This document shows, in pieces, positions 4,696 to 62,279 of a stretch of 64,000 bases of DNA (positions are counted from its first letter, which is position 1; each line of letters begins with the position of its first letter). Source of the DNA: Geosiphon pyriformis (Eukaryota; Glomeromycota; Glomeromycetes; Archaeosporales; Geosiphonaceae); assembly GCA_016748015.1 (NCBI GenBank), contig JAAOMT010000239.1, positions 683,864 through 747,863 of the forward strand, given 5' to 3'. The position numbers and the translations under genes were made by a program. Under the pieces are notes generated by a model. It had not been told where the DNA came from, searched no databases, and saw only the letters and a program-made list of their open reading frames with translations.

Positions 4696-5952
4696 TCATC
4701 TCTTCTTGTAAGATTCGTAAACTACCGATTTCTCTTTGCGATCTTTCCGAGAGGGAAAAACTTTTTCGCTCGATTGGTCTTCCAATCTATCACGACGATT
4801 ATTTGAATTAGAAATTTCATAGTTATAACGCTTGTTTCTTTCGTACATGATGTTTCCATCGAAAAGATGGTGGCTATTTCGTCTGCTTGCTAAATCCTCT
4901 CGAGCAAGTGATGTTCTTACATAATTACCGAGTCTTTTCTCAGAACAATGGTCTCCACTGTGTGCTTTACTCCCGCAGAGATAGCATAAAGTAACGGGTG
5001 GTCTTCCTTCCATAGAAAATCCTGGATTAAGTATATATCGTCGCCATATAGATTCCTTTGGTATATCAAATTCTCCCTCTTCTGAGTCATCGACTTCATC
5101 TGAATCCTCGATCACTTCTGGGCAATTCCGAGGTGAATGTCCTTGTTTTCTGCATACGTTACAATATTGTGGCACGAAATACCTATTATTTTTTCTTGTA
5201 TTCTTCTCCGATAAATTATAACTGTTGGGAGATTCATTAGGCTTTGGTAAACTTGATGGTGGATGAATAGTGATAATTTGTTGAGAAAAGAAAGCTTGAT
5301 CGCTAATTTCTACGTTAGAAATTGGTTGAATAGCCTTGTCGACTTTCATTTCTCGATCTGATTGCTCTTCTGAAGAATAAGAATCAGATGGATCACCCAA
5401 TGATATTTTTTCCTTTGCTTGAAAACAATTAGAAAATCTCATTGAAGAAATAGGCTTGCGACCTATAGCATATTTTGATTCATTTTCGGGTGGTTTTTCA
5501 GGGATTTTAGACGCTCGGTGCCTTGAATCGATCTCATACTCATCGCTTGAACTATCAATTATGTAAACTTTTGGTTCCTCGCCTTTACTATCTATTTTAT
5601 GGGGTGAGTTGTACCTTTTTCTAGTTGGGCTTTTTGGGAAGAATTGTCTCGGGCTGTTTGATGGTGTTGTAATTAGGCTATTGGTGTCTGGAGAGAAGCC
5701 TTCGTTTTTTTTGTAATTTTTAGAAGTGTAATCTGATTTTGTTACTGGTGAGTTACCAGCACTCGAAGAATTTTGTTGCTTTTGAGGTTTAAGGCAATCT
5801 TGAAAAATAGAGGGTGCCTTGCTTGTGTAATATATATGGCTCAATAAAGTTTCTGTATCGCTGAGTTCAGCTTCACAATCTGTCTCCAAATCTTGTTCTT
5901 TATATAGTTCATCTTCTAGCTGCAAAGCTTGATCATAAGCTTCTTCGTCCAT
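4696..5952 (-). CDS. Zinc-knuckle (CCHC) protein, disordered
   Basis: Single exon, 418 aa. The open frame extends to 5991 but the first ATG is at 5952 (MDEEAYDQALQLEDEL), so this start is chosen. The N-terminal half is acidic and Ser/Asn-rich with SP/TP sites (GNSPVTKSD, NSPRQFFPKSPTRKR) and looks disordered. In the C-terminal half are a canonical knuckle CNVCRKQGHSPRNC and a variant CYLCGSKAHSGDHC with Ala in place of the usual Gly. Both fit C-x2-C-x4-H-x4-C. Such knuckles bind single-stranded RNA and occur in TRAMP-complex Air proteins and ZCCHC7, but those have more knuckles, so the exact role is open. The C-terminus is basic (KDRKEKSVVYESYKKR), suggesting nuclear or RNA contact. Confidence 0.8.
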   Translation of the reverse strand: MDEEAYDQALQLEDELYKEQDLETDCEAELSDTETLLSHIYYTSKAPSIFQDCLKPQKQQNSSSAGNSPVTKSDYTSKNYKKNEGFSPDTNSLITTPSNSPRQFFPKSPTRKRYNSPHKIDSKGEEPKVYIIDSSSDEYEIDSRHRASKIPEKPPENESKYAIGRKPISSMRFSNCFQAKEKISLGDPSDSYSSEEQSDREMKVDKAIQPISNVEISDQAFFSQQIITIHPPSSLPKPNESPNSYNLSEKNTRKNNRYFVPQYCNVCRKQGHSPRNCPEVIEDSDEVDDSEEGEFDIPKESIWRRYILNPGFSMEGRPPVTLCYLCGSKAHSGDHCSEKRLGNYVRTSLAREDLASRRNSHHLFDGNIMYERNKRYNYEISNSNNRRDRLEDQSSEKVFPSRKDRKEKSVVYESYKKR

Positions 5953-6420
5953 GCTAGCTGATGTTATAAAAAGACAAAACCTTGTAAACAATGAACCAAA
6001 TTATTTCCAGATCTTTCAATTTAGTATAGTAAACCGAGCTAGCCTAAAATTAATAATGATACAAAATTCCTTTGTACGCATCTCGGACTCTCACAGTTGG
6101 AAAGAATTACTATGAATGAGAGAAATTAGCTTGATAATTCTGCCAGGCGTATCGCGATAATGCTCCTATACATCTTGATACAAGATCTTCGTAAGTTATA
6201 TGATACAAGGCTTCAGTATTCAGTGCTAACATGCCAAAGATAGAAATTCTATACAGATTTTGATGCTCCAATTGAATATTTCATCACTAACATATTTCTA
6301 ATTATCCCTACAATTAACCAACCAAATAGAATTGAAAAGAATAGCTGGTCAATCAAGGGGCACTCGTATTAACTATTTGTTTGCAGAGCATCTTTCTCAC
6401 TCAGTTTTTTCCCTTTGCTC
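5953..6420. promoter_or_regulatory. 468-bp divergent intergenic region
   Basis: This sits between the start codons of the zinc-knuckle gene (minus) and the Nudix/CCCH/W2 gene (plus), so it should hold both promoters. No TATA box or repeat stands out. No open frame or recognisable element was seen. Confidence 0.4.
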
Positions 6421-9257
6421 ATGGACGAGAACAAGTCTCAAACTCTCCATGTTACAGGAATACTTATTTATCGTTTACACCGCCAAGTTGAATTTTTATT
6501 GTTAAACGACAACTTCACACATAAAAAACATTGGACAGCCCCTAAGGGAAACGTTATTGGATTTGAAGACGAATTAAAGTGAGTTTTTAATTGAGCTAGC
6601 AGCTTTCTGGAAAAACCCACTCACCTTGCTATGGGTCCAAGATTTGCATTTATCTCTCAGTTTTGGTATCCTGATTCGATATAAAATAGAGTATGATACT
6701 GCGAATTTTCAGACCATTCATCAATTGGACTTAAAAAGGTATTTATCAACTTTCACTGGCAGATGCGCACTCCGTAACACTATCGAAATCACTGGTCTTT
6801 CCCCAAAGGATTTGAGAATTGAAGAAAATTTTAGAGTTGAAATTAAATATCTGTCAGGAACCCGGTTAGCCAATTTAAATCAATTCCTTTGATATAAAAT
6901 TCACAAAGAAAGCATTTGTTAACAATATTTAATAATTCTTACAGACCAAAAAGAGTTGTCTATTATCTTGCCCAAGTCAGCGATCATGCTCGTGTTTATA
7001 CGACCGGTGAAGGTCTCAATTTTAATTGGTTACCCCTTCAAAATGCTGTCGAAAAGGCGATTTACAGAAATATGCAGGATGTTCTCCGACAGGCCGCCTC
7101 TTTTATTGAGAAAAATAAGCCGCAGAGAAATCCCGATTCATCATTACGAGTACGAATTCAAAAGGGTCAAGGTCAAGCCAACAGCGATAGACTAGAGTCT
7201 AGATTCAAGAACTTGAATTTAGCCTTACCCCTGGACTCGCAACGTCAAGCAATGTCCAGACAGAGAAATGAACTGCAAAATGAACAAAGACAGCAGAATC
7301 ATCATCGTACAGAGAAAAATGGCAATGGTTATTCTTCGCCCCTTCACTCTCCTGTAATGCCTTTCGAGAACCCGCTTTACAAAACCCGTCTTTGTGAGCG
7401 ATTCGAGACCGAGGGATTCTGTCCATATGGTTCAAAATGTACCTTTGCTCATGGAACTGATGAATTACGAGAGAGACCACTTACTGAAGATAAACCTGGA
7501 CTGCCGACTATGACAAAAGATGGTCCTGAAAACCCTCTTTATAAAACGCGTCTGTGTGAGCGTTTTATAAAAGAGAATTTTTGTCAGTATGGGCCAAAAT
7601 GTAATTTTGCTCATGGAGAAAAAGAGTTAAGGGAGCAAAAACATCACCCTCCTAATTATCCACATGGGGAACATAAACAGAACCAAAATAATCCTAACTA
7701 TCAAAGGAATCAGCAACAGTTACAAGGGAAGGAAGATGGCAAAAATCACGAAAAAGATTTTACTCAAAATCCCCACTCTCAAGATGAAAAAGAAACGCGC
7801 CCTTTTCGCGATAATTTTCAGATTCTGAAGCATTTTCCGAATCGCTATATTAACATTCCAGGTGACGCGTCAAAAAGGTCATCTTTTGCGAGCGCGACTA
7901 ATTTTTCCCGGTCCGAAATTCAGAATGGGATTTTTAATCGCATTTCTATTGTTTCGGTCAATGATTCATCATCCTCAATTCCATCAGTCAGTCGAGTCAG
8001 GTAAAATTCGAACAATATTTTATTATAATAATTTTTTAACATTTAATTTTCCCAATATACAATTCAGGCTTCCTAATTTCGCATCTGTTTTCTTATTGTG
8101 CCATAATTTTTTTTATAATTATGTAATACATTTAGTCCTTCCCAACAGTCGCCTAATGAGGAAGATTTTCCCATCGAACGCCATCAGGCCGAAAATCACC
8201 AGGAAGTTTTTAAGAATGATGACAAGCAGGAAGAACATATGCATCTTGAAATTGATCAGAAGGAAAACCAAGAAAAAGAAGAGATAAATAATAGAGAAGA
8301 AAACGTCGAAAGGAAGGAAATAGAAAATAAAGAATCCCAACCACGAGATTTATCTCCTTTGCCACTGGCGAATAGCCCTAGGGTACCAGTGAACGCGCGT
8401 CGTAAGCCTGCTATCAACGATACTGTCTCCTTGAAAGATTTACTAAGTGGCAACGTAAAGGTATTTAGCATTCATGTATATGCGTTTATCACATGATTTT
8501 TAATTTTTTAATTCTTGACATAAAGCCACAAAATGAAAAATCATGGATGAAAGTAGTCGAATTTTCAGACGATGAACTGGCAAAACTGGAGAAAATGTAA
8601 GTGCACTTTTTCGCTTTGATTTTTGGTCCATCCATGTTTTATCACTTATTTCGAGTTCCCTTCCATATTGAATCAGTAAAAAAATTGATACGCATCCATT
8701 AACTGTGGATAAAAGATCACATGAAGATTTGCTTGTTAATGATCTAAAGCGATTTTTTGCCACTGTGAAAGAACAATCAAAACTCATTTCTGAGGAGATA
8801 AAGGAGATCACACGTATCGAAATGAGGCATGATTTGAGTAAACAGCAATTGTTCACGACAGTTATCCGAGGCCTGTATGAAGGCTCTACATGGGATACTA
8901 TTTACCAAAGCGTACCTAATAAAGAAAAGTTATTCAAAACGGTAGAAAAATTGATACTTCTAATTTGATTTAAAAAATTCCATAGTCTTATGACTCATTT
9001 GTTTACTATCCGTTTAGTACATTCATTCCAGCCAAGATCAAATTATTTTCCTCACATGCTGGGAGAAATTCTTTCTGCAACGCAGTTCAAACCTTATTAT
9101 TAAAACACCTCTTCTCTTCAAGCTATTTTACGATAAAGATTGGATTGAAGAAGATTCTATTCTGGAATGGTACGATAAAGCAAACGATACAAGTGACGTA
9201 AAAAAGAAATGTGCTATTTTCGTTAATTGGCTACGAGAGGCCGAGGAAGAAGAGTAA
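6421..9257 (+). CDS. Degenerate Nudix (Ap4A hydrolase-like) + tandem CCCH zinc finger + W2 domain protein
   Basis: Exons: 6421-6578, 6763-6864, 6945-~8000, 8149-8460, 8526-8596, 8677-8941, 9018-9257; about 732 aa. Residues ~1-150 align with the asymmetric Ap4A hydrolase NUDT2: HWTAPKGNVIGFEDELK, then PKRVVYYLAQV. The Nudix box reads GNVIGFEDELKCALRNTIEI then TGL: the catalytic RE became RN and the EE pair became EI, so hydrolysis is probably lost. Two TTP-type fingers follow (~236-258 and ~290-311), each YKTRLC-x8-C-x5-C-x3-H, separated by a linker longer than in TTP. After a Lys/Glu-rich stretch comes a C-terminal W2 domain (~575-732) ending LEWYDKAND...VNWLREAEEEE, as in eIF5, eIF2B-epsilon and DAP5. 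Inferred role: an mRNA-binding regulator contacting translation initiation factors. The exon 3/4 junction is uncertain: the strong donor at 8001 gives the wrong phase with the acceptor at 8148, while a weak GT at 7996 restores the frame. Confidence 0.85.
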
Positions 9258-10285: not shown

Positions 10286-12661
10286 CTATTCTCCTTCTGT
10301 AACATGCCAATGTTCTCCCAGATGCTCACGCAACTTTGGCATGGTGGATATCGCTTTTCTTTCACATAAATGACAATTCAACTCTCCCTTCAACTTGTTT
10401 TCATAATATTGCTTGTCAAACTATGTTCGCAAAGCAGATTAGGGAACTTAACAGTAAATAAAGAGAAAACAAAAAATCCTAATCACTAACCTTAATCTCC
10501 TCATTTTTTTCTAACATTTCTATTATGTCTTCCGGGGTTTTGAAGAAATCGGTGGTAAATGAGAGGTAATGCATTTTCTTTTTTAGACACGTAGACACCA
10601 TGTCACGAGATATGATGTGCATGTGGAGTTGTCTATTAAAGAATATAGGAGAAATCAAAGAGAAATAAAATAAGCAAAAACAATTGAATCACCCACTTCA
10701 TGCTGGGGATAGCGTGAAATCCAAGTCGAAATTCCAGTTTTTGATGGCCTTGTAAATTGTAGGGATGATTCTCTTTCAACCTTATACCAAAAATGTTATT
10801 AAAGATCAGTAGAAAGGTGTGGTGAAAATAATTAACTAGGGATTCTTGAAGGGATCGTCTCACCCTCGCTCACCTCTCAATCACCCATTTGGCCAGTGTT
10901 TGCATATCACGCACCAATGGTATATCGTCTTTTGTCAGACTTTCGATGTTATCAATCTTCCGTCGAGGAATCACCAAAAGATGTTCTCTTGCTTTGGGAA
11001 ACTTATCCCAAACAACGACAAAGTCTTTATCGAAAAAGAAAATTTCATTTTTGCTAAACCTCTCTGGTCGGTCTAAATACTCCAGAAGAACGAGATTCCA
11101 TGAAAGTACATTCTTGGAGTGTGATGGCGAACCGGAAGCAGATTTTATAATAGGAGATGCAACAGGATTCCGGGCACTTTGCATTAACACATCAACTAAA
11201 AAGTTAAGGTGTTCTCAATATAAGGAGCTATCCAAAAGAACAAATGGCTAATACTCACATGCAGATTTTTCTTTCTTTTCTCCTGATGGTTCAAAGGGGA
11301 GTGGGGACTTTTTACTGCGTTTTAGAGCTGAAAATGCGTCAAGGATTCCTTTGTAACAGTTTCTAAGCAACTTTCTTCCTTCACCCAGTGAGACAGGATT
11401 ACTTCTTATTGGACTCATATTTGGTGAAACAACATAGATTATCTGTTTTCCGAAAAAATACGTTACTAAATCTCATCAAATAAAATTAGAAAAGAAGGGA
11501 TTTTACATTTTCGATGCCTTCTCTTTGACAAAATTGACTATTTTTTGGAACTGGTAGCGGATATACACCGCCTTGCTAAAAAATTTCAAATTACTATGAT
11601 TAAATGAAGTTATAAAACGGACTTATCGTTGAAGAGACGGAAATAACCCACGATTCCAGGATGTGGATATAATTTTTCTATCTCTGATGCAAGTTCAGGG
11701 CCGATTGCATCTTTGATCATTTTACTGAAGGATGTCGTGTCTCAAAAATACAAAAATCCATTGAGGAACAAATCAACAAATTTCAAGCAAAACCAAGGTT
11801 ATTCAGAAAAAATAAAAAATAAAACAGAAACTCACAAGGTTTGAGTCGCCAAGTAGTCTCATTAACGAGATACCTTTAAAATTTTAGCTCCAAGATTAAA
11901 AACATAAAATTTTTTAATCAGGTTCGCAAAATTTCAATCGAACCTTGACTCCAGATTAGGTAGAAACTTCATTTCATCATTAAACAATTGATGAGCAAAT
12001 TTTAGCCTTGAATCACCATCTGGACCCCATTGCTATATACCAAATTTCAAAATTTGAAAGTTAAAATTTTTGGATCATAAATAATTCATGCTCGATAGTT
12101 ACATCTTTGTAAGCCTGTAAAATTTTGTGATCAGGGTCATAGAGGATCAATTCAAATGGGTCATCTTTATCCGAGTCTTCCTGTTGTTCATTGCTGGTAT
12201 TATGTCGCGTAAGAAATTCTCGAATAATCTACCAGTCAAATTTCATCATCTTGAATTAAAAAATTCGATTCAAAAATCAACCAGTTCGTTTTTTTGTGGT
12301 GCACAGGATAAAAAAACTCGCCTCACAAGCTATAGAGGCGGCTTCGTGTACTGGGAACATAGCAAGATCGGTAGATAAAGAGGGAAAAGTAAGCCGTATC
12401 ATGTTCTTCTTGACGTATATCATGATATAATATTAAGTATGTGGATACATAGTTGAGCACGCGACAAAATATACCTGCATAAAATTATAATACTTTGACA
12501 AATTGAAAAACGAAAATCTTTAGAGTAAAGAAACCCTCACCTACCAGTCTTCGGGTTTCGTTTTCTGGACTGTTGTCACGTTTTTCAGTCGAGTTTATTT
12601 TTTTAGGGCGGCCTGGTCTTGGGAACGTTGTGCTGCTGTTTTCCGTACTACGTTTACTCAT
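10286..12661 (-). CDS. Aprataxin-like DNA-adenylate hydrolase (HIT + C2HE finger, possible macro-like N-half)
   Basis: Starts at ATG 12661 (MSKRSTENSST, then GRPKKINSTEK). Well-supported exons are ~11507-11575, 11259-11442, 10874-11195, ~10697-10791, 10491-10632 and 10286-10411; those upstream of 11580 are less certain. The HIT domain begins KNVLSWNLVLLEYL, continues VVVWDKFPKAREHLLVIPRR and holds the active site FRLGFHAIPSMKQLHMHIIS. It ends with the family C2HE finger CHLCERKAISTMPKLREHLG. Aprataxin/Hnt3 removes 5'-AMP from DNA ends left by failed ligation, in the nucleus. The N-terminal half contains IIYVVSPNM and GGVYPLPVP blocks resembling a macro domain, an arrangement also known in plant aprataxin-like proteins; this part is an inference. 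It is convergent with the W2 gene. No lesion in the HIT part. Confidence 0.85.
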
Positions 12662-23955: not shown

Positions 23956-24067
23956 AGAACTCGCCTTTAGACAAATAACTATAAACGTACTATCAAATAA
24001 ACCTTTAAAGAAACCCTCTTTGAATAATAACTTATTCACATTTTATCCTTTGTCCGTTATTTATATC

Positions 24068-25336
24068 ATGGAAAACAAAGAAATTAAAAGAACGACTCGT
24101 CCAGAGGCTCATGATTGCAATGAATGTCAACAGTGTCAACGGTTTATTGAATATACTGGTAATTTTTGTAAAGCATGCCAGTTCATGTTTTTCAAAAAAC
24201 ATTATAAAGACTTTTCAAGTGGCAATGAAGAAGTTGATAAAATAATTAAGAATCCAATCTATATTCAATATGATCAATCTGATAATTATGGTGAATTGAA
24301 TTACTATGAATGGATTCCATGGGAGCATTTGTCGAATATCAACGAAATTGCTAGAGGAGGGTTTGGGATAATTTATAAAGCAACCCTAATTGATGGATTA
24401 ATTTATTCAGCAAGTATAAAACATTATGGTTCAATGGAATATAAAACATATAACAAAGGGATGCAAGTAGCAATAAAAATAATAAAAAAGAACAGTTCAG
24501 AAGTGTTTAAAGAGGTAACAAACTATTTATATTTATATATTAATTTAATTCACATTTACCTATTATTTATTTACTATATATATTATCTATTTACTTAATC
24601 TTTTTTTCACTGTGTTTTGATAGTTAAATATTCAAAGAGCTATATTTATTAATAACAGTGAAGAGTTGTATAATATCTCTAAAATATTGGGGATTACGCA
24701 AAACGCTGAAACACTCGAGTATGGAATTGTGATGAAGTTTGCCAGACATGGAGATATGCGAAAATATTTGTCAACAAATTTTCATTATACGAGTTGGTCT
24801 AATAAATTTGAGATCGCGATCCGTATAGCTTCTGGACTTGATTCAATTCATTCTTCTGGTATGGTTCATCGTGATCTACATTCGGGCAACATCCTACAAT
24901 TTGATAAACACTTGGTAAATATTGGAGACCTCGGATTATGTCAAACTACAAACCATGAAGCAACAACAACAACAATAACAACAGAGGAAAAAAAGATATT
25001 TGGAGTGATTCCATATATTCCACCAGAAGTTTTAAGAGGAGAAAAGTTTACAACAGCTGGTGATATTTATAGTCTAGGAATGTTATTATGGGAATTATCA
25101 ACAGGAAAACCTCCTTTTCATGATTGTCCTCATGACGAAATCCTTATAATGGCTATTTTAAATGGTCAAAGACCTAATATTACCTCCCCATTTATTCCAC
25201 CTCCAATTGCTAAACTCATTAAAANNNNNNNNNNNNNNNNNNNNNNNNNNNNNNNNNNNNNNNNNNNNNNNNNTTTCTTTTTAAAGAATTAGTCTATTTG
25301 CCTGAGAGTAAAAAAGTTGAAGAAAATTTTGAATGA
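24068..25336 (+). CDS. TKL-like protein kinase, copy 1 (interrupted by assembly gap)
   Basis: Exon 1 is 24068-24514, exon 2 runs from 24624 into the N gap, and the last exon 25293-25336 ends VYLPESKKVEENFE. The N-terminus has a four-Cys motif, CNECQQC...CKAC, probably a small zinc ribbon. Kinase blocks: P-loop IARGGFGIIYKA, VAIKII with the ATP-binding Lys, catalytic loop MVHRDLHSGNIL, GDLGLC in place of DFG, and PPEVLRGEKFTTAGDIYSLG. The first Gly of the P-loop is Ala, while the catalytic Asp, Asn and metal-binding Asp are kept. The family is hugely expanded in Rhizophagus and is probably Ser/Thr-specific signalling. The C-terminal lobe is missing because of the gap. The paralogue at 50447-51947 is complete and very similar. 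Confidence 0.85.
25225..25273. other. Assembly gap (49 N) inside a kinase gene
   Basis: The flanks match the paralogue at 51588 and 51885, where the intervening sequence is 296 bp. The 49-N gap therefore understates the missing sequence by about 250 bp, unless this copy has a deletion. Confidence 0.95.
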
Positions 25337-28788: not shown

Positions 28789-30323
28789 TTATTCAACTTC
28801 GTTATTTTCAGGCAAATAGATTAATTCTTTTAAAAAGCAAAATAAAAAGCAAAAAGTTTAGCATATTCAATTTAACTAATAACCTAATCAGTCATTTTGA
28901 AATTAAATGAACTAACCTTTAGAAAAATGAATCATTTGAGCAGTTAAAGGACGACTTGTATAAACTGCTCCTGTATGAATTATTTTCTTATCGTGTTTCA
29001 TAGTCTTTTTAAGGGGTTGAATGCTTTTTGAAAATTTTATTGTCCTAAAGTATATCCATCTTTTAAATATATTATTATACAAATTTCCAAGTTTTCCCGA
29101 CTTCTTCCAAATTTCTTCAGCAGTAGGACGATTCTTAGAATTAGCATCCCAACACTTTTTAATGAGTTTACCGATAGAAGGTGGAATAAGGGGTGAGGTA
29201 ATATTAGGTCTTTGACCATTTAAAATAGCCATTATAAGGATTTCGTCATGAGGATAATCATGAAAGGGAGGTTTTCCTGTTGCTAATTCCCATAATATCA
29301 TGGCAAAACTATAAATATCACCCGATGTCGTAAACTTTTCTCCTCTTAAGACTTCTGGTGGAATGTATGGAATCACTCCATATATCTTTTTTTCCTTCGT
29401 TGCTTTTCCTGTTGTTGTTGCTTCATTGTTTGTAGGTTGGCATAATCCGAGGTCTCCAATTTGTACCGTTCGTGAATAATATATTAGGATGTTGCCCGAA
29501 TGTAGGTCACGATGAACCATACCAAAAGAATGAATCATACTAAGTCCCCAAGCTATACGTTGCGCGATCACTAATTTATCTTTCCAACTCATATAATGAA
29601 AATTTGTTGATAAATGCTTCCGCATGTCTCCATATCGAGCAAGGTGTATCACAATTCCATATTCAAATGTTTCAGTGTTTTGGGTAATTCCGTATATTTT
29701 AGATATATTGTATAGGAAATCGCTATCGTTATTATTGAACATGGTTCTTTGAATATTTAACTATCAAAAAGCGAAAGAATGATAAATAGATAATCAGATT
29801 AAGCATATAAATATAATAAAAATAAACAAGAATGAACCCTTCAAAATAATAATAATAATAATTTGATTACCTCTTTAAAGACTTCGTTACTATTCTTTGA
29901 AGATGATTTCATAAATTTTATTGCTACTTCCATCCCTTTTCCCCATGTTTCATATTCAATTGAACCATGATGTTTTATAATATCAAAACGAATAAATCCA
30001 TCAATAAAGGTTGCTTTATAAATTGTACCGAACCCTCCCTCTCCAATTTTGTTAATATCTGACAAACTCTCCCATGGAATCCATTCATAATAATTAACTT
30101 TACTAAAAGAATGTTCAGTAGGTGAAGTATAGATTGGATTCTTAATTATTTCATCAATTACTTTATTTCCGCTTGAAAAGTCTTTATAAAGTTTTTCAAA
30201 AAATAAGAATTTGCATGCTCCACACTTATTCACTACATTTCGAATGCTCTCTTGACATTCTTCACATAGGTTACAATCATGAGCAGCTTCTGGACGAGTT
30301 CTTTTAATTTCTTTCTTTTCCAT
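28789..30323 (-). CDS. TKL-like protein kinase, copy 2 (intact)
   Basis: Three exons (29871-30323, 28917-29760, 28789-28826) join in phase to 444 aa. ATG at 30323 gives MEKKEIKRTRPEA. The N-terminal four-Cys motif is CNLCEEC...CGAC. The kinase domain is complete: canonical P-loop IGEGGFGTIYKA, VAIKFM, MVHRDLHSGNIL, GDLGLC, PPEVLRGEKF, GDIYSFAMILWELATGKPPF and CWDANSKNRPTAEEI. The C-terminus ends ELIYLPENNEVE. Relative to paralogues the last intron uses a different AG (the usual TTAG is TTAA here), which adds residues but keeps frame. Likely an active Ser/Thr kinase. Its promoter (30340-30450) is nearly repeated upstream of the pseudogene at 34224. Confidence 0.9.
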
Positions 30324-30464
30324 GGTTTGAGTAAATAAAATGGGAATGAATCTTTAATAGAATTAAAAATTTTGAAGCTTTTATTAATAGTAAGTTTAGA
30401 AACTTTAACACACAGCCATTTCCTGATAAGGAATAGGTTAAAACACGAAAGAATAAGTATGAAT

Positions 30465-39396: not shown

Positions 39397-41347
39397 CTAC
39401 CTTACACTTTTAGCATAATCGATATCCCCTTGCAACTGTCGTAACTCACGTTCACTATCACTCAGATATGTGTCTAGTATACTCATCTGTGTTTTTAGCG
39501 TCTGTATATTATCCTCTAATTCATGAATTGCAGCTCGTTCTTTCTTAATATGTTCTTCGAGCAACGATGATTTGCTTTTTCCACTGATATCTTTTAAAGC
39601 CGATAATTGTTTTTGTTTGTACTCATAAAGTTGTCGAAATTCTGTTTTTACTGCTGAAGAATTGGAAGAAGTAAGGGCAGTAGTGTAAGTTGATAATGCT
39701 TTCTCTTCGGCCCTTTGAAGTTTTTCATTTAATTCCGCTAATTCTCGGAGCAATTGTTCTTCTTCCCTGTTTGTCCCGCCTCCTAAAATGATAAATTACA
39801 TATAAATAAAATAATTCGAAAAGTAATAATATTTCAGGATACTTTACCTCTATGAATGGATCTTGGTGATCCCTTATTACTTGATGTTGCCCTACGCGTA
39901 GTAGATGTAGGATCTAGAGTCTCATTGTAGTTATAATTAAGCTTTCCACGTACCAAAGATGTTTGCAAGGCTTTTGGTAAAACATTGGGTATTCTTTTTC
40001 CTTTGCTTCGCTCATTCAAAATATGCAAAAAAACGAGGCAGGCATCTTTTCCAAGCTTTTGTTCAAAATTAACATCCACAAGACTCCTAAATAATATGTA
40101 TTAAGATTTTTCAAAAATGCCAGTTTGAAAAAACATCATTAATATTTGGGAAAAATTTTTGACATTGAACCATGCTTCTATGCATTCTTCTCTTGGTATT
40201 CCAAGTGTTTCATAGAGATCATCGAAAAAAGCAACTAAACAATAAATAAAGAAGATTTCAAACATCAATCGAACTTTTCCTGAATAGCCAAAAATTATTT
40301 ACTAACTGATAATTACATCGTACATATCCATGAGGACCCACATGGCTCGAATATTGATTTTCGTAATTGAATTTATCAGCGGGCGGCATATACCAATCGA
40401 AATCATCAGTCAAAGGGGCCGTCGGAAAATTACCCAACTTTAAATGAGAACAAAATAATATTTATTTACATCAAACATGGGAAAAAATGAAACATAAATA
40501 CGAAATTCTCCAATACCTGATGTCGTTGAAGGGTAGGCGGTGGGGGTACTGGTGGAGGAATTTGCGAATACTTCAAAATATTGATAACTATACATTATAT
40601 TGAATCCTTAAAATTATGAAAAAAAACTCAAGGCAGGGTAAAAATAATAAAACAAAACCTGAAGTTGAGAGGGTGATGGAGGTACAGGTGGGGGAACTTG
40701 TGAATACTGTTGTTGTTGTCGCTGCTGCTGCTGCTGTTGCTGTTGTTGTGACATTAATCCAATCCCAGCAGAATATCCACCACCACCACCACCACCACCA
40801 CTACTACTACCTCCTCCACTGATAAAATTCCCCCCACCACCTCCAATAAAATTTCCACCACCCTGAATTATGTTTCCTCGCGAGAATAAGTGAATTTTAC
40901 TTTGAGGAATAAGATGCGCTGGAAGTGCTGGCGGAACATCAGGGTAAACGCCGGCCAACAAATCATTAACTAATCTGTACGTAACCGAAAATTCATCAAA
41001 ATCAAGGTTACCGTCCTTATCTATGTCGCATAGATCCCTGAGCAGAGGGCAAAAGGGAAAATGAATGGGTCTTTGAGATGGTTTAAATGAAAAAACCAAG
41101 GCTTTCAACTTACCATATTTTTTCGAGTTTGTTCACCGGGATATTAGAGTTTACGAGCCATTTGTGTGCTTGGGCACCTTTAAATCAACATTATTTTACA
41201 AACGGAAAAAGTTAAAAACTGGTAATGAACAAAACCAACTTCATTAAAACAGATGAGAGTCATACCAGTAAGATATCCATTAATAGGGCCAAGTTGGGTA
41301 AACATGGAAAAATATTGTCGTTTTTCTGCCTCGCTTATACCACTCAT
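39397..41347 (-). CDS. END3: END3-like EH-domain endocytosis protein
   Basis: Start ATG 41347; exons include 41266-41347, 41114-41177, 40659-41037, 40517-40570, ~40307-40437, then ~40150-40240, ~39848-40085 and 39397-~39780. EH1: EKRQYFSMFTQLGPINGYLT, AHKWLVNSNIPVNKLEKIW and the EF-hand loop DIDKDGNLDFDEF. Then the END3 signature PPALPAHLIPQSK, a low-complexity spacer (Gly-rich and poly-Gln, 40690-40860), PPP-VPP stretches, a second EH with DDFDWYMPPADKFNYE, and RIPNVLPKALQTS. The C-terminus is a coiled coil (LNEKLQRAEEKAL to LRQLQGDIDYAKSVR). End3 works with Pan1 and Sla1 at cortical actin patches. The Gly/Gln spacer is longer than in ascomycete End3. The junctions around 40150-40310 are not fully resolved. 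Confidence 0.88.
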
Positions 41348-50332: not shown

Positions 50333-50446
50333 AGAACTCGCCTTTAGGACAAATAACTATAAACGTACTATCAAATAAACCTTTAAAGAAACCCTCTTTG
50401 AATAATAACTTATTCACATTTTATCCTTTGTCCGTTATTTTATATC

Positions 50447-51947
50447 ATGGAAAACAAAGAAATTAAAAGAAAAACTCGTCTATACGCTCATGATTGCAAT
50501 GAATGTCAACGTTGTCAACAGATTATTAAATATAATTCATCTAATGATTGTAGAGCATGCCAGCGCATGTTTTTCAAAAAACATTATAAAGACTTTTCAA
50601 GTGGCAATGAAGAAGTTGATAAAATAATTAAGAAACTAATCTATATTCGTAAACATAATGAATTGAATTACTATGAATGGATTCCATGGGAGCATTTGTC
50701 GAATATCAAAGAAATTGCTAGAGGAGGGTTTGGGATAATTTATAAAGCAACCCTAATTGATGGATTAATATATGTTGGAAGTATAAAACATCATGGTTCA
50801 ATGGAATATGAAAGATATAAAAAAGAGATGGAAGTAGCAATAAAAATTATAAAAACAAACAGTTCAGAAGTGTTTAAAGAGGTAACAAACTATTTATATT
50901 TATATATTAATTTAATTCACATTTACCTATTATTTATTTACTATATATATATTATCTATTTATTTAATCTTTTTTTACACTGTGTTTTGATAGTTAAATA
51001 TTCAAAGAGCTATGTTTATTAATAACGGTGGATATAGAAGTTCTTATGTCTCTAAAATATTGGGGATTACGCGAAACGCTGAAACACTCGAGTATGGAAT
51101 TGTGATGGAGTTTGCCAGACATGGAGATATGCGAAAATATTTATCAACAAATTTTCATTCTACGAGTTGGAAAGATAAATTAGAGTTCGCGTCTGATATA
51201 GCTTCTGGACTTTCTTCAATTCATTCTTCTGGTATGGTTCATCGTGACCTACATTCGGGCAACATCCTACAATTATACGCTAATGTGGTAACTATTGGAG
51301 ACCTCGGATTATGTCAACCTACAAACAATGAAGCAAAAACAACAACAGAGGAAAAAAAGTTATTTGGAGTGATTCCATATATTCCACCAGAAGTTTTAAG
51401 AGGAGAAAAGTTTACAACAGCTGGTGATATTTATAGTTATGGAATGTTATTATGGGAATTATCAACAGGAAAACCTCCTTTTCATGATTGTCCTCATGAC
51501 CAAATCCTTATAATAGCTATTTTAAATGGTCAAAGACCTAATATTACCTCCCCATTTATTCCACCTCCAATTGCTAAACTCATTAAAAGGTGTTGGGATG
51601 CTAATTCTAAGAATCGTCCTACTGCTAGAGAACTTACAGAAAAGTTTATGGAACTTCGATATTTGTATAATTATAATAGGTTTAAAAGATGGATACACTT
51701 TGGGAAATCAGATAAACTAAGAAAAATAGCAAAAAATGACTCGACAACAACAAAGATAGCAATTCATCCAGAAGCAGTTTATACAAGTCGTCTTTTAACT
51801 GCTCAAATGGTCAATTTTTCAACAGGTTTGTTTATTTAATTTATAAAATGATTCATTTTATTTGCTTTAATTACATATTTTAACTTTCTTTTTAAAAAAT
51901 TAGTCTATTTACCTGAGAGTAACAAAGTTGAAGAAAATTTTGAATGA
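50447..51947 (+). CDS. TKL-like protein kinase, copy 6 (intact)
   Basis: Three exons (50447-50881, 50994-51825, 51904-51947) join in phase to 436 aa: MENKEIKRKTRLY to VYLPESNKVEENFE. The four-Cys motif is CNECQRC...CRAC. Kinase blocks: IARGGFGIIYKA, VAIKII, MVHRDLHSGNIL, GDLGLC, PPEVLRGEKFTTAGDIYSYG, LWELSTGKPPFHD and CWDANSKNRPTARELT. As in copy 1, the first P-loop Gly is Ala, while the catalytic residues are kept, so some activity is plausible. A ~1.8-kb segment including the promoter is duplicated from or to 23715-25340. It is followed 130 bp downstream by a DNA transposon that copy 1 lacks. Confidence 0.9.
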
Positions 51948-55685: not shown

Positions 55686-58600
55686 CTATACACTTATAGA
55701 AACACTAACCCTATAAATAGCATCAGACAAAAACAAGAACCTATTCTTAAAACTGAAACCGACATCAAGAGAATCCAACACACCAGTAAGATGAACCATG
55801 TCAGCTAAAAGAAGCAGAGCACCTGTACCAAGAGCACTGGTCACAACAATATCATCACCAATCAAACCACTTCTCTCTATGTCAGACCTGAACTTAGTTC
55901 TAAAAAGCCAGAGGTTCATCCTATGACTCTTAGCCAAATGACAGACGAAATCCACTACCACAAAGGCCACTTTCTTCTTGTCATTGAGAGAAACAATGGC
56001 CTCATCCATCCAACTCTTGAGAACAAATCCCTTGCAAAAAACCGAATACAAACCAACATCAGACACCCCCAGAGAGAGATCTTGCAACACAAAAGACGGC
56101 AACAGTAGATTAGGACCCATCAGAGTTTTCCACAAACCACCAAAGTCACCCAAAATATCTGACCACACAGAAGCATTCTTAACACAAGTAAAGCCATGAT
56201 TGGAGAGTTCCATATCACCACAAAATAGACATGACACACCAAGGTAATCTTTATTATACAGCCTCTTTCAAACAGCAACAGGCAACTTGAAATGAACAGC
56301 TTTCATGAAATACATATGAAGAGCAGCAGTGGCTCAACACATATTCCCAGAAAGCATATGAGAGTCAGGATACCAAACTAGAGCAGTATTATTCCAATTG
56401 ACAACCAGACCAAACAAACAAGACAAAACCCCTTGGCCAGGACCCACCTCCCACTGAAACTTACAAATGGAACAAAAAATGTCATGTACAAAATGGCAGG
56501 CATTACCAGAAACTGGCCTGCCATCAGTCAGCCATAACATTATCAGCAATGCCAGCATGACCTTTGACTTTGATCCAGTAGACAGTCAAATCTTTGGATT
56601 TAATCAAATCAACCATATGGTGTCTTTTTATTCAGCAACTATTGCGACAATCCAGCTGCAAGAGACCCAATTCGGCCACACATGCATCAATAGCTGCTTG
56701 ACTATCTGTGTGCAAAGCCACTGAAACAGAGGCAGAAATGCACTCCAAAGTCAGAGCAACAGCCTGTAATTCAGCCAGAGTCAAAGACAGCACACCATGT
56801 ACCTCTACTCCTAAACCTTTGTTCAAGCTAGGAAAATAAGCAGCAGCACCACACGCCACCTGAAACGTACTCAAGCCTTTAAGAGAACTGTCAGTATAAA
56901 CATCAATCTCATCAGCCCACAATCCATGAATCTCTTCACAAATATCAGCAAAAGATGTCAAATCTAAAACACTAGCACAGACAGAAACTAAACTCACAGG
57001 AAGGGGAGCATGCAAACAACTATTCAAGTAAGTGGAGGCCTTCAAAAACCATAAAGGCACGGGGCCTCTAGAACCAAGTTTTTTCCATCGGCAAAATGTA
57101 CGCCAACTAACAACAGAACCATTTTTGTTCAGAAGTTGGTTACCATATGCCACACCAGCAATTTTCAAGGAGCAAACCACATTGAAATACAAAAGATCAC
57201 CCAATACCAATGACATTGGGAAACAGCCAGGAAAGCAAAAGACACAGAAAAGCCTGTTATCCAAAGACAGCTTGTTGTCAAGAAATATACAAACCACATC
57301 CACTAGAAAATTGTTTGAAGTGTTCACTTTTAGCTTAACAGGATATTGAAGAGGATTCAGCGGAGTCCAGCACAAAACCTGCAAATCCAAAAATCAATGT
57401 TCAAACAGTTGACCAAGAATTCCAGAAGAATTTGCAAATTGCACAATAGAAGCTACGTTGCATTTAGCTTGCAACTGTTCAAAAGATTTCAGTCCATAAA
57501 AAGAGAGGTGATACAACACCTCATTGGGAAAGTCTCTCGGCAAATTGGCTTTCGACCTAAGACTTTTTCTAATGAGAACATCCTATTTTAGACAAACAGC
57601 TTTGGAAACAAAACTAAACTGTGTCTGATAACTGACTATGGGCTGCAAAACAGCCAAAACCAGATAAGAGAATTGTTTATCAGAGACAGCCTTCCAGAGA
57701 ACCATATTTGAGAAGAACCTAATATCTGAATTGGCTTTGGCAAGACTCGGCTTAGACAAACCATTGGTGGACAAGAAAATACCCAAATATCGATGACTCA
57801 CACCAGAATTGGCAACAGCAATAGCCTGGCCGTTAATGGATAAAACAGGAACCCCCATTTTTTTGTTGATAGGAATGGCAACTGTCTTCTCATTGTTTAT
57901 GTTAATGTCATTGATGAGGAAAAACTCGCTGACTACATTAAGAATGTGTTGTATAGAGGCTTGCCCATTTCCCACCCAAATAGTGTCATCAACAAAGACA
58001 CCAGCCATGAAAAAAGAAGTCATACTCCCACTAGTCTCAATCCTTTCAGTCTTTGTCACAAAGTTCAAATTGATCTGATAACTACACAAATGATCTTGTC
58101 TCGCAACTTTACATAACAAGAGGTCGTAAAAAATTTTCCATAGAAGAGGTGAGAAAACTTTACCCTGATCCAAACCATCAAGAACTTTGTATTTATCAGA
58201 AAGGCCAAAATCTGTCATGACTCTGTTAAAGTGATTGTTGTGAATGTTGCCAAAAAACTTGATGAACTTGCCACACATTTTGATACAGTATAAACTAGCT
58301 TCCAAATGAGGCCAACCAACAGAGTCATATGCTTTGCACATGTCTTAAAAAACCAGCCAAAGTTCATGGCCTTTTTCCAAAGCATCCTCCACAATTGAAC
58401 CCACAGCTGAAATTGGTAACTGAGTGGAAGTGCCTTTGAGGACAGAAAAGTTGTTACCATGGAGAACATCAAACTTATTACAAGCAAGAGAAATCCTGTC
58501 TGAGAGAACTTTTGACAGAATCTTTCTGGCCATCTCAATCAATACAATAGGCCGTGTATTTGACAAAACACTATTCCAATCATAAGGCTTAGGAATCATG

Positions 58601-60279
58601 GACACCCAGGCCTCTTTCTAATAGACTGGAACATTACCAAAATGCAAACAAGAGTTCAGCAAAGACAACAAACACTCCAAAACCAAACAGCCAGCATGTT
58701 TTCAAAGTTCATTGGTAATACCAGACAAATCAGCAGCTTTGCCATTAGGAAGATTGCTTATAACTGAAGACATCTCACACATGGTAATATTACATATGAC
58801 CAAACTAAAGACACTATCATTAACATAAGCCAAAAAGGCATATTGTTGTGCCCAGAGACCAGACAGGACAGAAAGAGCATTCTGCTTTCTGGTCCAATTA
58901 ACCATGATGTTATTTATTTTGAGCTTTATTTCATTAAGTTCCAAAATAAGAGAATCACCAACAACCAAATGGTCTAAAACAACTTTGCAAAAAGATTGTT
59001 CCAAGATGCTCTGAATTATCTCACCTTTGTCCATATTGAACTTTTCCATACACTTATCAATTACGTCTCTGATAGCAGATCTTTTGGCCACCTCAGATTC
59101 ATAATATTTGGATTTTCTATATTGCTTTCTAACCTTTGCAAGATGACTTATTAAGCCAGCAGAACCCACATCATCCCTGACCATACCAAAAACTTTGGAA
59201 GCTTCAGAAGGGTCAACTTTAAACCAAGTGTCAGCCAGACGATTAAAGCCTAACATATCATCCAGTCTTAGCACTTTTAATAACTTGGCAACCAACAGCT
59301 CTAACCTGGAAAATTTAGAAAAAAGTCTATTCTTAGCACAATCAAATTCACTATACCAATGTCTTAAAAAAATTTTTTCAGCAGAAGCAGTCATGGCTTC
59401 AGTTAGCACCTCCCACATTCCATCTAAGTTGCCACCATCTTCAGCCATTTTGAACCTATCCAGAGAATCCAAAAGCGCACATTCAGAAAGTTTTTTAAAA
59501 TGTGCCCACTTTTTCTCATTAGCATCCTTAATCTTAAACTTCCAGCAATCTTTATTAGCATGCTTGTGGATGCTGTTCAAACAAGCATCCAGAAGACCAC
59601 CCAGCCCAATAGACATTGAGACAGCCAAGTGATCCATGTTAAAAAATTCTGAGACAGAACTAACATCATGATCCACAACAGCTGAAATCAAAGAGTTACT
59701 AACTAGAATATAGTCCAAAATTCTGCTAACACCTCTTGAATTGCTCCAAGTAAGAATTCTAGCTAGAGAGTGGCCACCAAAAACATTAACTAAACCCAAA
59801 CCTAAACATTTTTTAAGACTTGCCCCCTTGACTGAACAGTTTTCATTGAAGTCCTTACCCAAAACAACAAAAGAACTTTTGTTGACAGTATCAGCAATGA
59901 ATGAATTAATAACAGAAGCCTGAGCAAAATAGTTACCACCAGACACACAGGCATAAAGCCCAATGACAGACACAGAAAGCTTGTTCTTAAACAAAAGACA
60001 AATCAAAAGAACTCTGCCCTTCACCTTCTTAACTTTGGAAACATGACGAGTTAGAGAATTGTTCACAAAAATGGCCACACCAGCCCCACAAAACCCAACA
60101 TCCAGACCAAATGTAAAAACCCAAACACCCTCAAACCTTTTCATGATCCATGGTTGTGAACTAAAACACAACTTGGTTTCTGTAACAATCGAGATCAAAC
60201 TACCAGATTTCTTATGCCAGTGAAAAATGTCTTTTTGTTTTGCAGGATTGTTCATTCTCCTAACATTACATGTGGCAAT
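55686..60279 (-). pseudogene. LINE ORF2: APE endonuclease, reverse transcriptase, RNase H
   Basis: Frame from ~60279 (KIATCNVRRMNNPAKQK) down to 56632, broken only by stops at 58702, 58618, 58345, 57583, 57394 and 56632, then a frameshift near 56543 into the frame ending at 55686. Endonuclease: ITETKL-like TETKLC, LGKDFNEN, RILDYILVSNS and MDHLAVSM. RT: LPNGKAADLSGITNEL, DMCKAYDSVGW, FVDDTIWVG (catalytic DD kept) and HRYLGIFLS. RNase H: DVYTDSSLKG, LAELQAVAL, LHTDSQAAID and KVKGHAGIADNVMAD. A Cys/His block, CLFCGDMELSNHGFTC, lies near the C-terminus. The order fits APE-type, I/Tad-like LINEs that carry RNase H. All six stops are TGA, TAG or TAA reachable by single C-to-T or G-to-A changes. 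Confidence 0.9.
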
Positions 60280-60296
60280 TTTCTAAATAAAACTGG

Positions 60297-62219
60297 TTAT
60301 TGTGATGAAGAAATAACTGAAGAACCTGAGCCAGCACACAACTGATCCAACTTAGCCAAAATCAAACCAATAGAGATGTCGAAGACAACCAACTTCAATT
60401 CCAGACCACCAACTTTGGAAGTCAGGACTTTGGAACTACTTAGACCCAAGAGTGAATTGGTAACACCTGAAGAGAAAGAAGTAGGCTGGACAAAAAGATC
60501 ATCAACTGCCATGTCAAAATCCAAGTCAGAGTTTACAACCACAAGAGAAACAGAGGTTGGGAACTGAGAAACAATCACAGAAGGAACCATTTGAGAGGAA
60601 GGCGCCAAGGGTGCTGAACCAATATTGTCAAAATGAGAAAAAATGTTTAAAATTTGACCAGACAAAAGCTCGACAAAGCATTCCAGAAGTGCTAAGTGAG
60701 CACTCAAAGGAGAATTGATCACAGGTAGAGGGGAAGGTGCTCTACCTGAACTCAAAGCACCAGAAGACAGAGAACCAGAACCAGAACCAGCACAAAAACC
60801 ATGAGAGACTAAAGTAACTGAGACCACTTGAGCCCAAGATTTGCCACCAAAGGCAACAGGATGAGAGATTGATACATTCTTCTTTGCATACAATTTGGCC
60901 AGCTGGTGACAAGTATCTAGGTTGGCAGGCCTTATAAAAAACTTTGAAGATTTGAGAGCTGACGCAACCTCAGCATCACATTCCAAGGCAGAATGACCAA
61001 ACTTCTTACACCATTCACAGCGAACCAAATCCAGCCTAGTCCATGAGAGTTTTACACCACCAAAGATTGGCTCCGTGTGAAAAGCTGACTCTAAAACCTC
61101 ATCAGAATCAAAACAAACAACAGCACAGCAGACCCTATTACCAGTCTCCAATAACCAATTTATAACACAAGTTTTTCCACCAGTCCCTTCAAGAAGATCC
61201 CCAAGATTATGAGCAGTAGTTCTCACCGGCAAAGTAAACAAAAGCACCCTGAACTGATCTCTAAAAGCCCAAGTTTCATGATCGCCCACCACCATAGCCA
61301 CACGAACCGAGTCTTTACCAATTAGGAAGGACCACCTAACAGCCAAAGACACAGCCTGTTCTAGTTCAGCAAATTCTACCACAGCCTTTTGCCATAAACC
61401 AATTAACTGGATTTTGATCGACTTAATTTCTCCAAACTCAGATACTGCGGCAACGATCATTTTCTTTGGCATATTCATGGGAATTTCTTTGATTACTACA
61501 GTCTGATCTGAGCGAATTACTTGTCTCTTAAGATCACTGTTTACAATAATGTTATTTTCTCTGACCAATGACATGATCTTTTCCATGCTTTCTGATGAAG
61601 TAAACATTGATCAGATGATCCCTTCAAATTTTGAGGGGATAGTGGCCCCCCCAAAATCATTGATTCCTGAAAATAATTTTCTTATAACTTGAGTTTTGGC
61701 TGTTGCCAATTTCCCTTCTATAGCCAAAAAATTAATGTCCAAAGTGAAAAATTTTTTCACAGCTACTTCCACCTGAGTTTTAATGATTTTGGGATCAATA
61801 CATGCCTTATCCAAAGAGAAAGACTTACAGGAAAGAAGAAAAATCTCTTCTTCCTCCTCCATGTCATAATTAATAAAGTCAAGAAGAGAGCCAATAATCG
61901 CACCATTATTGAAACACTTGGCTTGTGGTGTATTCATCTTGGAATCAGATATTCCTTCACTTTCAGAAGCCTTCCCATCAGTATTTATGCTATTAAACTG
62001 CTCGACTACTTGACCAGACCCATTATCATTGAGAGTTGCACCATTACTTGATAGCTTAGTACCACTGAGAGGTTTCTTGATCTTATGACTTGAACCACTA
62101 CCAACTAAACCAGAAGTTGGAACTCTGGTCAACCTTTTTTTAGCACCAGTACCACTTATAGGAGCAGCCAGATCAATAACAAAAGGATTTGTTTCTTGTA
62201 AAGTGTTGGATGACAGTAT
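60297..62219 (-). pseudogene. LINE ORF1 (RRM-like and zinc-knuckle protein), one in-frame stop
   Basis: The frame opens at about 62219 (ILSSNTLQETNPFVIDLAAP; the expected start ATG appears as ATA) and is open to 60297 except for one TGA at 61611-61613, a position where CGA to TGA explains the change. Content in order: Ser/Thr-rich N-terminus, acidic patch YDMEEEEE, VIKEIPMNMPKKMIVAA and IKIQLIGLWQKAVVEF, which look like RRM-type strands, then the knuckle CEWCKKFGHSALEC. A Ser/Pro-rich C-terminus follows. ORF1 proteins of LINEs bind the element RNA. Length is ~640 codons. Confidence 0.85.
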
Positions 62220-62279
62220 GAAATGACAGAAAAAAAACTTCTTTCAAATTATGACTCTTTTTCAAGAATTTGGGACAAA

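Follow-up and report, generated by a model that had tools for sequence, protein, structure and literature searches.

An incomplete Nudix box beside two CCCH fingers and a predicted W2 domain in a putative NUDIX subfamily A protein of Geosiphon pyriformis

Described relatives

The closest described system is subfamily A of the fungal NUDIX proteins, a group of 84 proteins that was defined after 183 proteomes had been searched (Pasterny et al. 2025, PMC12210691). Table 2 of that study lists the subfamily as 100% fungal and states that "most have W2 and zf-CCCH". Its residues are reported to be disordered to 51%, it is considered most likely a distant kin of NUDT2, and its expression was seen in Glomeromycota, Mortierellomycota, and Mucoromycota (PMC12210691). 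The authors treat all of their new subfamilies as enzymes, that is, as hydrolases; at least two metal-ligand glutamates are kept in each of these, and the motif is called well preserved, with substitutions in the box being reported (PMC12210691). Docking across the new subfamilies was best for NADPH, NAD+, Ap3A, and Ap4A—a result for which the authors ask for empirical validation—and a nuclear location is predicted for the majority of members when the new subfamilies are pooled, with no figure for subfamily A alone (PMC12210691). The main text of that study assigns no function to the W2 and CCCH parts and contains no words beginning with "pseudo" or "inactive" (PMC12210691). For binding or activity of any subfamily A member, we found no results in the literature.

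The window analyzed here is the whole stretch of 64,000 nucleotides from Geosiphon pyriformis (Glomeromycota; assembly GCA_016748015.1, contig JAAOMT010000239.1, positions 683,864 to 747,863 of the forward strand), and all positions of the gene and its neighbors are counted within it. Judged by its sequence, the gene at 6421–9257 (+) is almost certainly a member of subfamily A, with which it shares the NUDIX, W2, and zf-CCCH architecture and the kinship to NUDT2 (PMC12210691). A sequence-only reading of the same DNA was aware of no earlier description of this domain set—a statement that has to be withdrawn in view of the published subfamily, most of whose members carry W2 and zf-CCCH (PMC12210691). 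This is a real single gene of already known architecture and uncharacterized function. What we add to the catalogue of 2025 is a residue-level reading of one member, whose active site appears to be weakened or dead and whose fingers are not spaced as in TTP.

Gene structure

From start to stop codon, the gene is predicted to consist of seven exons encoding 738 amino acids, a model that builds on in-phase GT...AG splicing and on Pfam domains over cut-off. Rebuilt from the DNA, the seven-exon join bears no internal stop; its introns are all GT...AG (6 of 6), measure 65–184 bases, and agree in phase at each of the six junctions. PF00293, PF00642, and PF02020 are present in this one protein, all above the curated Pfam cut-offs: zf-CCCH with E 2e-17 (two stretches), W2 with E 1.2e-15, and NUDIX with E 4.1e-6 (aa 13–134).

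In the spliced model, exon 1 (6421–6578, +) aligns with NUDT2 and encodes the N-terminal half of the Nudix domain through PKGNVIGFEDEL, followed by exon 2 (6763–6864, +) with the remaining Nudix box (CALRNTIEITGL) and the next strand. Exon 3 (6945–8000, +), part of a single open frame at 6898–8004, bears the C-terminal half of the Nudix domain (to about 7113), a Q/N/R/S-rich linker, both CCCH fingers, and the start of a second linker. Because this one open exon holds the fingers together with the C-terminal Nudix half, the Nudix–CCCH connection is firm, independently of any splicing after 6945. The CCCH–W2 connection is a predicted one and depends on four predicted introns together with the published architecture. 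Exon 4 (8136–8460, +) encodes a charged linker, exon 5 (8526–8596, +) leads from the linker to a helical region, and exon 6 (8677–8941, +) encodes the N-terminal, HEAT-like part of the W2 region, full-length eIF5 chains matching from aa 591 onward. Exon 7 (9018–9257, +) carries the W2 domain (PF02020, aa 666–738; 62.3 bits in a scan of the own genome), AA-box-like motifs, and the stop codon.

As the CCCH and W2 parts are joined by predicted splicing only, the locus could also be read as two adjacent genes—a Nudix–CCCH gene that stops near 8000, followed by an independent W2 gene from exon 4 on. The introns at 6579–6762 and 8597–8676 indeed resemble their neighboring exons with a GC fraction of 0.36, the other four lying at 0.21–0.25. 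However, the intron at which such a split would fall (8001–8135) is an in-phase GT-AG intron with a GC fraction of 0.21 against 0.41–0.42 in the flanking exons (0.42 in exon 4), and the combination of NUDIX, zf-CCCH, and W2 has been published as one architecture (PMC12210691). We consider a division into two genes highly improbable. The spliced model, the Pfam domains, and the PDB matches agree instead with the sequence-only reading, which had seen an unbroken frame from Nudix into two CCCH fingers and exons joining in phase to W2.

Nudix domain

Among the sequences of the PDB, the only human sequences that were compared, the nearest protein to the Nudix part is human NUDT2 (3u53, E 3.7e-19; 40 of 101 aligned residues identical), followed by the Ap4A hydrolase of C. 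elegans (1kt9, E 9.5e-19) and a putative Ap4A hydrolase (5cfi, E 1.7e-12). The next Nudix families match much more weakly: the decapping protein g5R and CT771 with E 0.0012, an entry named DCP2 with 0.041, and an RNA pyrophosphohydrolase with about 0.7. NCBIfam returned four weak Nudix matches on the protein, none above its cut-off.

The Nudix box reads GNVIGFEDELKCALRNTIEITGL, with R-N-T-I-E-I in the place of R-E-T-Q-E-E of human NUDT2. In human numbering, E49, R57, and E61 are retained, whereas E58 is replaced by Asn and E62 by Ile. Compared with the complete active box GX5EX7REUXEEXGU, the sequence found here, GX5EX7RNTIEITGL, is two glutamates short—the same loss of the RE glutamate and of one of the EE pair that had been noticed from the sequence before. 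A NUDT2 orthologue would stand alone with an intact box, as NUDT2 itself does; here, the box is incomplete and the domain is fused to fingers and W2. The published members of subfamily A, in turn, are regarded as hydrolases that retain two metal glutamates or more (PMC12210691); the present gene has lost both E58 and E62.

The splice at 6762 is the choice that yields the GX5EX7R spacing, and a mis-drawn splice at this point had been named as a possible source of the missing glutamates. Downstream of the exon 1 donor lie 11 AG sites, seven of which were tried as acceptors; three of these seven are in frame, and RNTIEI is kept with all three. The codons of R57 (6773–6775) and E61 (6785–6787) were read directly and hence place N58 at 6776–6778 and I62 at 6788–6790. 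Both changed codons lie within exon 2, and the lost glutamates are therefore not accounted for by an error in the splice at 6762.

At the position of E58, the PDB chains 4ick and 1xsa, whose sequences are part of the match list, carry an Ala. We take these chains to be mutants made to abolish activity. From the residues of the box, it appears fairly well supported that catalysis is weakened or lost. We think it rather unlikely that the domain has remained a hydrolase of Ap4A/Ap3A or RNA ends with a changed metal site, which would make the entire protein an RNA-targeted enzyme. E49, R57, and E61 are kept, and the published docking favors NADPH, NAD+, Ap3A, and Ap4A across subfamilies whose motif is called well preserved (PMC12210691); yet Asn and Ile replace two of the three REUXEE glutamates, human NUDT2 with Ala at the first of the two sites is present in the PDB as a mutant form, and docking is no test of catalysis.

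On the ligand side, the resemblance to human NUDT2 is partly retained, with W38, K42, Y82, K89, and Y93 conserved, whereas the ligand-side loop differs at three positions (H109 to G, H111 to G, and R115 to N). Tyr87 of the human enzyme in structure 1XSC has been described as the tyrosine for ApnA specificity (PMC5389931); as 1xsa runs five residues ahead of 3u53 in the alignment, we infer that it corresponds to Y82, which is conserved here. Noncatalytic Nudix domains exist, as in DBC1, which is predicted to bind NAD metabolites, and nonenzymatic Nudix domains are known in protein interaction (PMC5389931). The present domain might, by analogy with the latter, bind no small ligand and serve as a structural or protein-binding scaffold, with the function residing in the fingers and W2. 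The two lost box glutamates and the three loop substitutions would fit such a role. Against it stand the five conserved ligand-side residues and the overall identity to human NUDT2 given above, and we regard a pure scaffold as doubtful.

A scan of the own genome with PF00293 found six other Nudix loci, five of them above cut-off (L014 lies below). Read by eye, the RE/KE and EE glutamates are present in five of the six (L009, L010, L012, and L014, whose box was read across an intron, as well as L011 with K for R); the remaining one, L013, has the isomerase-like box RKLEHEL and resembles isopentenyl-diphosphate isomerase. In this small sample, the Nudix box described here appears to be the odd one out of its own genome. 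With the Nudix protein as query, the genome gave three matches, all within this gene, and only one copy of a subfamily A-type gene was found. Since the PF00293 scan missed the intron-split Nudix domain of the gene itself, the absence of a second NUDT2-like gene from the genome is to be taken tentatively.

CCCH fingers

Pfam and motif reading place finger 1 at aa 237–256 (7393–7452, +) and finger 2 at aa 291–310 (7555–7614, +), 34 residues after the first; both are of the form CX8CX5CX3H with the lead-in YKTRL. With TTP/TIS11 they share this pattern twice, the YKT of the lead-in, FAHG and then ELR after each finger, and Tyr/Phe at the stacking places. The differences are an Arg for the lead-in Glu and a Glu for the Arg after the first Cys (YKTRLCE in both fingers against YKTELCR in TTP), and an inter-finger gap of 34 rather than 18 residues. 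A spacing of 18 from His to Cys, which together with the YKTEL lead-in marks TTP/TIS11 proteins, is found in the coordinates of TIS11d and in a TTP-like gene of the own genome (contig C379). Hence, the label "TTP-type" given in the sequence-only reading holds for the CX8CX5CX3H pattern, whereas lead-in and spacing depart from it.

The lead-in R/K-Y-K/R-T-E/K-L strongly affects the specificity of CCCH fingers: Glu5 helps to set U1, Leu6 and Arg8 bond A2, and a basic residue stands at position 5 in MEX5 and ZC3H11 (PMC3616968). Mapped to this numbering—tentatively, as the number of the Phe in that paper differs from the count made here—both fingers carry Arg at position 5 and Glu at position 8 and retain Leu6 and the two aromatics. 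Trypanosome ZC3H11, with its basic residue at position 5, retains a preference for AUU repeats and has a weak affinity for poly-U; a basic residue at this position alone does therefore not abolish an AU-rich preference (PMC3616968). From their sequence, RNA binding by the fingers is likely, and AU-rich binding of exactly the TTP kind is less sure. A relaxed RNA specificity is known from MEX-5.

Relatives were also sought in contig collections of viral, bacterial, and archaeal sequence, where absence means little. A 232-aa part of exon 3 gave 38 pattern matches in genome contigs, the finger region gave two in viral contigs, and none of either set was confirmed; a degenerate DNA pattern for YKTRLCERF had no match in viral contigs. 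One match to this pattern in an archaeal MAG (L034) reads YKTSLCERF in frame with a stop two residues on, and was set aside as chance.

W2 domain

The W2 domain scores 57.7 bits against a Pfam cut-off of 30, and the C-terminal part matches eIF5 (6knd, E 9.7e-8) and eIF2B-epsilon (3jui, E 1.1e-5) among PDB sequences. Exon 7 folded alone gives four helices in a poor model (mean pLDDT 60.6), with which Foldseek found nothing at E 0.001 and 14 matches at E <= 10, the best at E 1.9 and none named a W2 protein.

Scanning the own genome with PF02020 gave six matches: one in this gene, two for eIF5, one for 5MP, and two for eIF2B-epsilon. The eIF5 matches lie near both ends of contig C147, and the one copy that was identified is eIF5 in 10 of 10 matches. 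On contig C389, the open frame upstream of the 5MP W2 exon is PF25504 (E 7e-65)—the identity of 5MP comes from Pfam, a 265-aa fragment having no match in the PDB—and the frame upstream of the eIF2B-epsilon exon matches eIF2B-epsilon in seven of nine hits (best E 5.3e-12). In a crude shuffle test against these own-genome fragments, which differ in length, the W2 domain gave z 9.6 for eIF2B-epsilon, 8.9 for 5MP, and 5.0 for eIF5. The two comparisons disagree on the nearest W2 relative: the shuffle test favors eIF2B-epsilon/5MP, and the PDB chains rank eIF5 first. With 5MP/BZW, eIF5, and eIF2B-epsilon, the present protein shares a C-terminal W2 domain; those three are encoded elsewhere in this genome, and we know of no Nudix or CCCH domains in them.

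The eIF2-beta tail carries lysine boxes to which eIF5, eIF2B-epsilon, and 5MP bind with their W2 domains (PMC12224906), and DAP5 binds eIF2-beta through AA-boxes (PMC4402527).

The two eIF5 C-terminal exons on C147 are near-identical and stand in opposite orientation at the contig ends (4743–4964, +, L006, and 105692–105913, -, L005). A stretch of N precedes the former, and the arrangement might be an inverted duplication or an effect of assembly.

Genomic neighborhood

In the divergent neighbor at 4699–6000 (-), an open frame of 434 aa contains two CCHC-knuckle-like motifs, CNVCRKQGHSPRNC and CYLCGSKAHSGDHC, and has no Pfam family at E 0.01; if it starts at MDEE, its start codon lies about 470 bases from that of the gene. 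At 10870–11214 (-), possibly extending to 10479, Pfam finds a HIT/DcpS_C-type exon. The downstream frame at 10479–10688 has no Pfam match and is, by eye, presumably aprataxin-like. Farther along the window, three similar genes encode a short Cys-rich part and then a protein kinase domain (23957–25289, +; 28915–30353, -; 50402–51836, +), which looks like a local expansion. END3 and EH-domain frames (Pfam) at 39400–39795 (-) and 40617–41132 (-) possibly belong to one endocytosis gene, and long open frames in a row at 55689–62243 (-) look like a non-LTR retrotransposon, with a sub-threshold RRM match in 60300–61610.

Possible function

The best explanation overall, to which we give an even chance, is that a weakened or dead NUDT2-like domain is carried by a protein that is tethered to RNA and regulates translation initiation, the mechanism being one that we infer. 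Through its CCCH fingers, the protein would settle on U-rich or AU-rich mRNA. Near this mRNA, its W2 domain would compete with eIF5, 5MP, and eIF2B-epsilon by binding the lysine boxes of eIF2-beta (or eIF3c/eIF1). The Nudix domain would serve as a regulatory site whose ligand, a dinucleotide polyphosphate or the 5' end of an RNA, is bound but not efficiently hydrolyzed; NUDT2 itself also works on RNA 5' ends (PMC9283932). Taken jointly, the RNA and W2 steps might equally well hold or fail, and the ligand-sensing step is the more tentative part, possible but leaning toward doubtful; the idea of a nucleotide sensor, raised in the sequence-only reading, is plausible. Several points speak against this explanation. 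Some hydrolysis is possible, as E49, R57, and E61 remain; the motif of the new subfamilies is called well preserved (PMC12210691); the substitutions of H109, H111, and R115 fall in the ligand-side loop; the nuclear prediction, made for the new subfamilies pooled (PMC12210691), would be awkward for a role in translation; and the poor model of exon 7 did not confirm the W2 fold.

The apparently weakened active site and the finger spacing unlike that of TTP change which assays come first. Extended to the entire subfamily A—a step that we consider unlikely and offer as speculation—the members would be fungus-specific pseudoenzymes, in which a dead NUDT2 domain would act as a sensor of Ap4A-like alarmones or RNA 5' ends. 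This sensor would switch the W2 domain, a competitor of eIF5/5MP on CCCH-held mRNAs. If true, the choice of start codon on selected mRNAs would thereby respond to a nucleotide stress signal. The proposal that Ap4A is a stress signal is an old one, and, to our knowledge, few Ap4A receptors in eukaryotes are defined. A protein in which a NUDT2-like pocket has lost catalytic residues and is joined to RNA fingers and a domain of the eIF2-beta-binding type would be a direct candidate for an Ap4A receptor in fungi.
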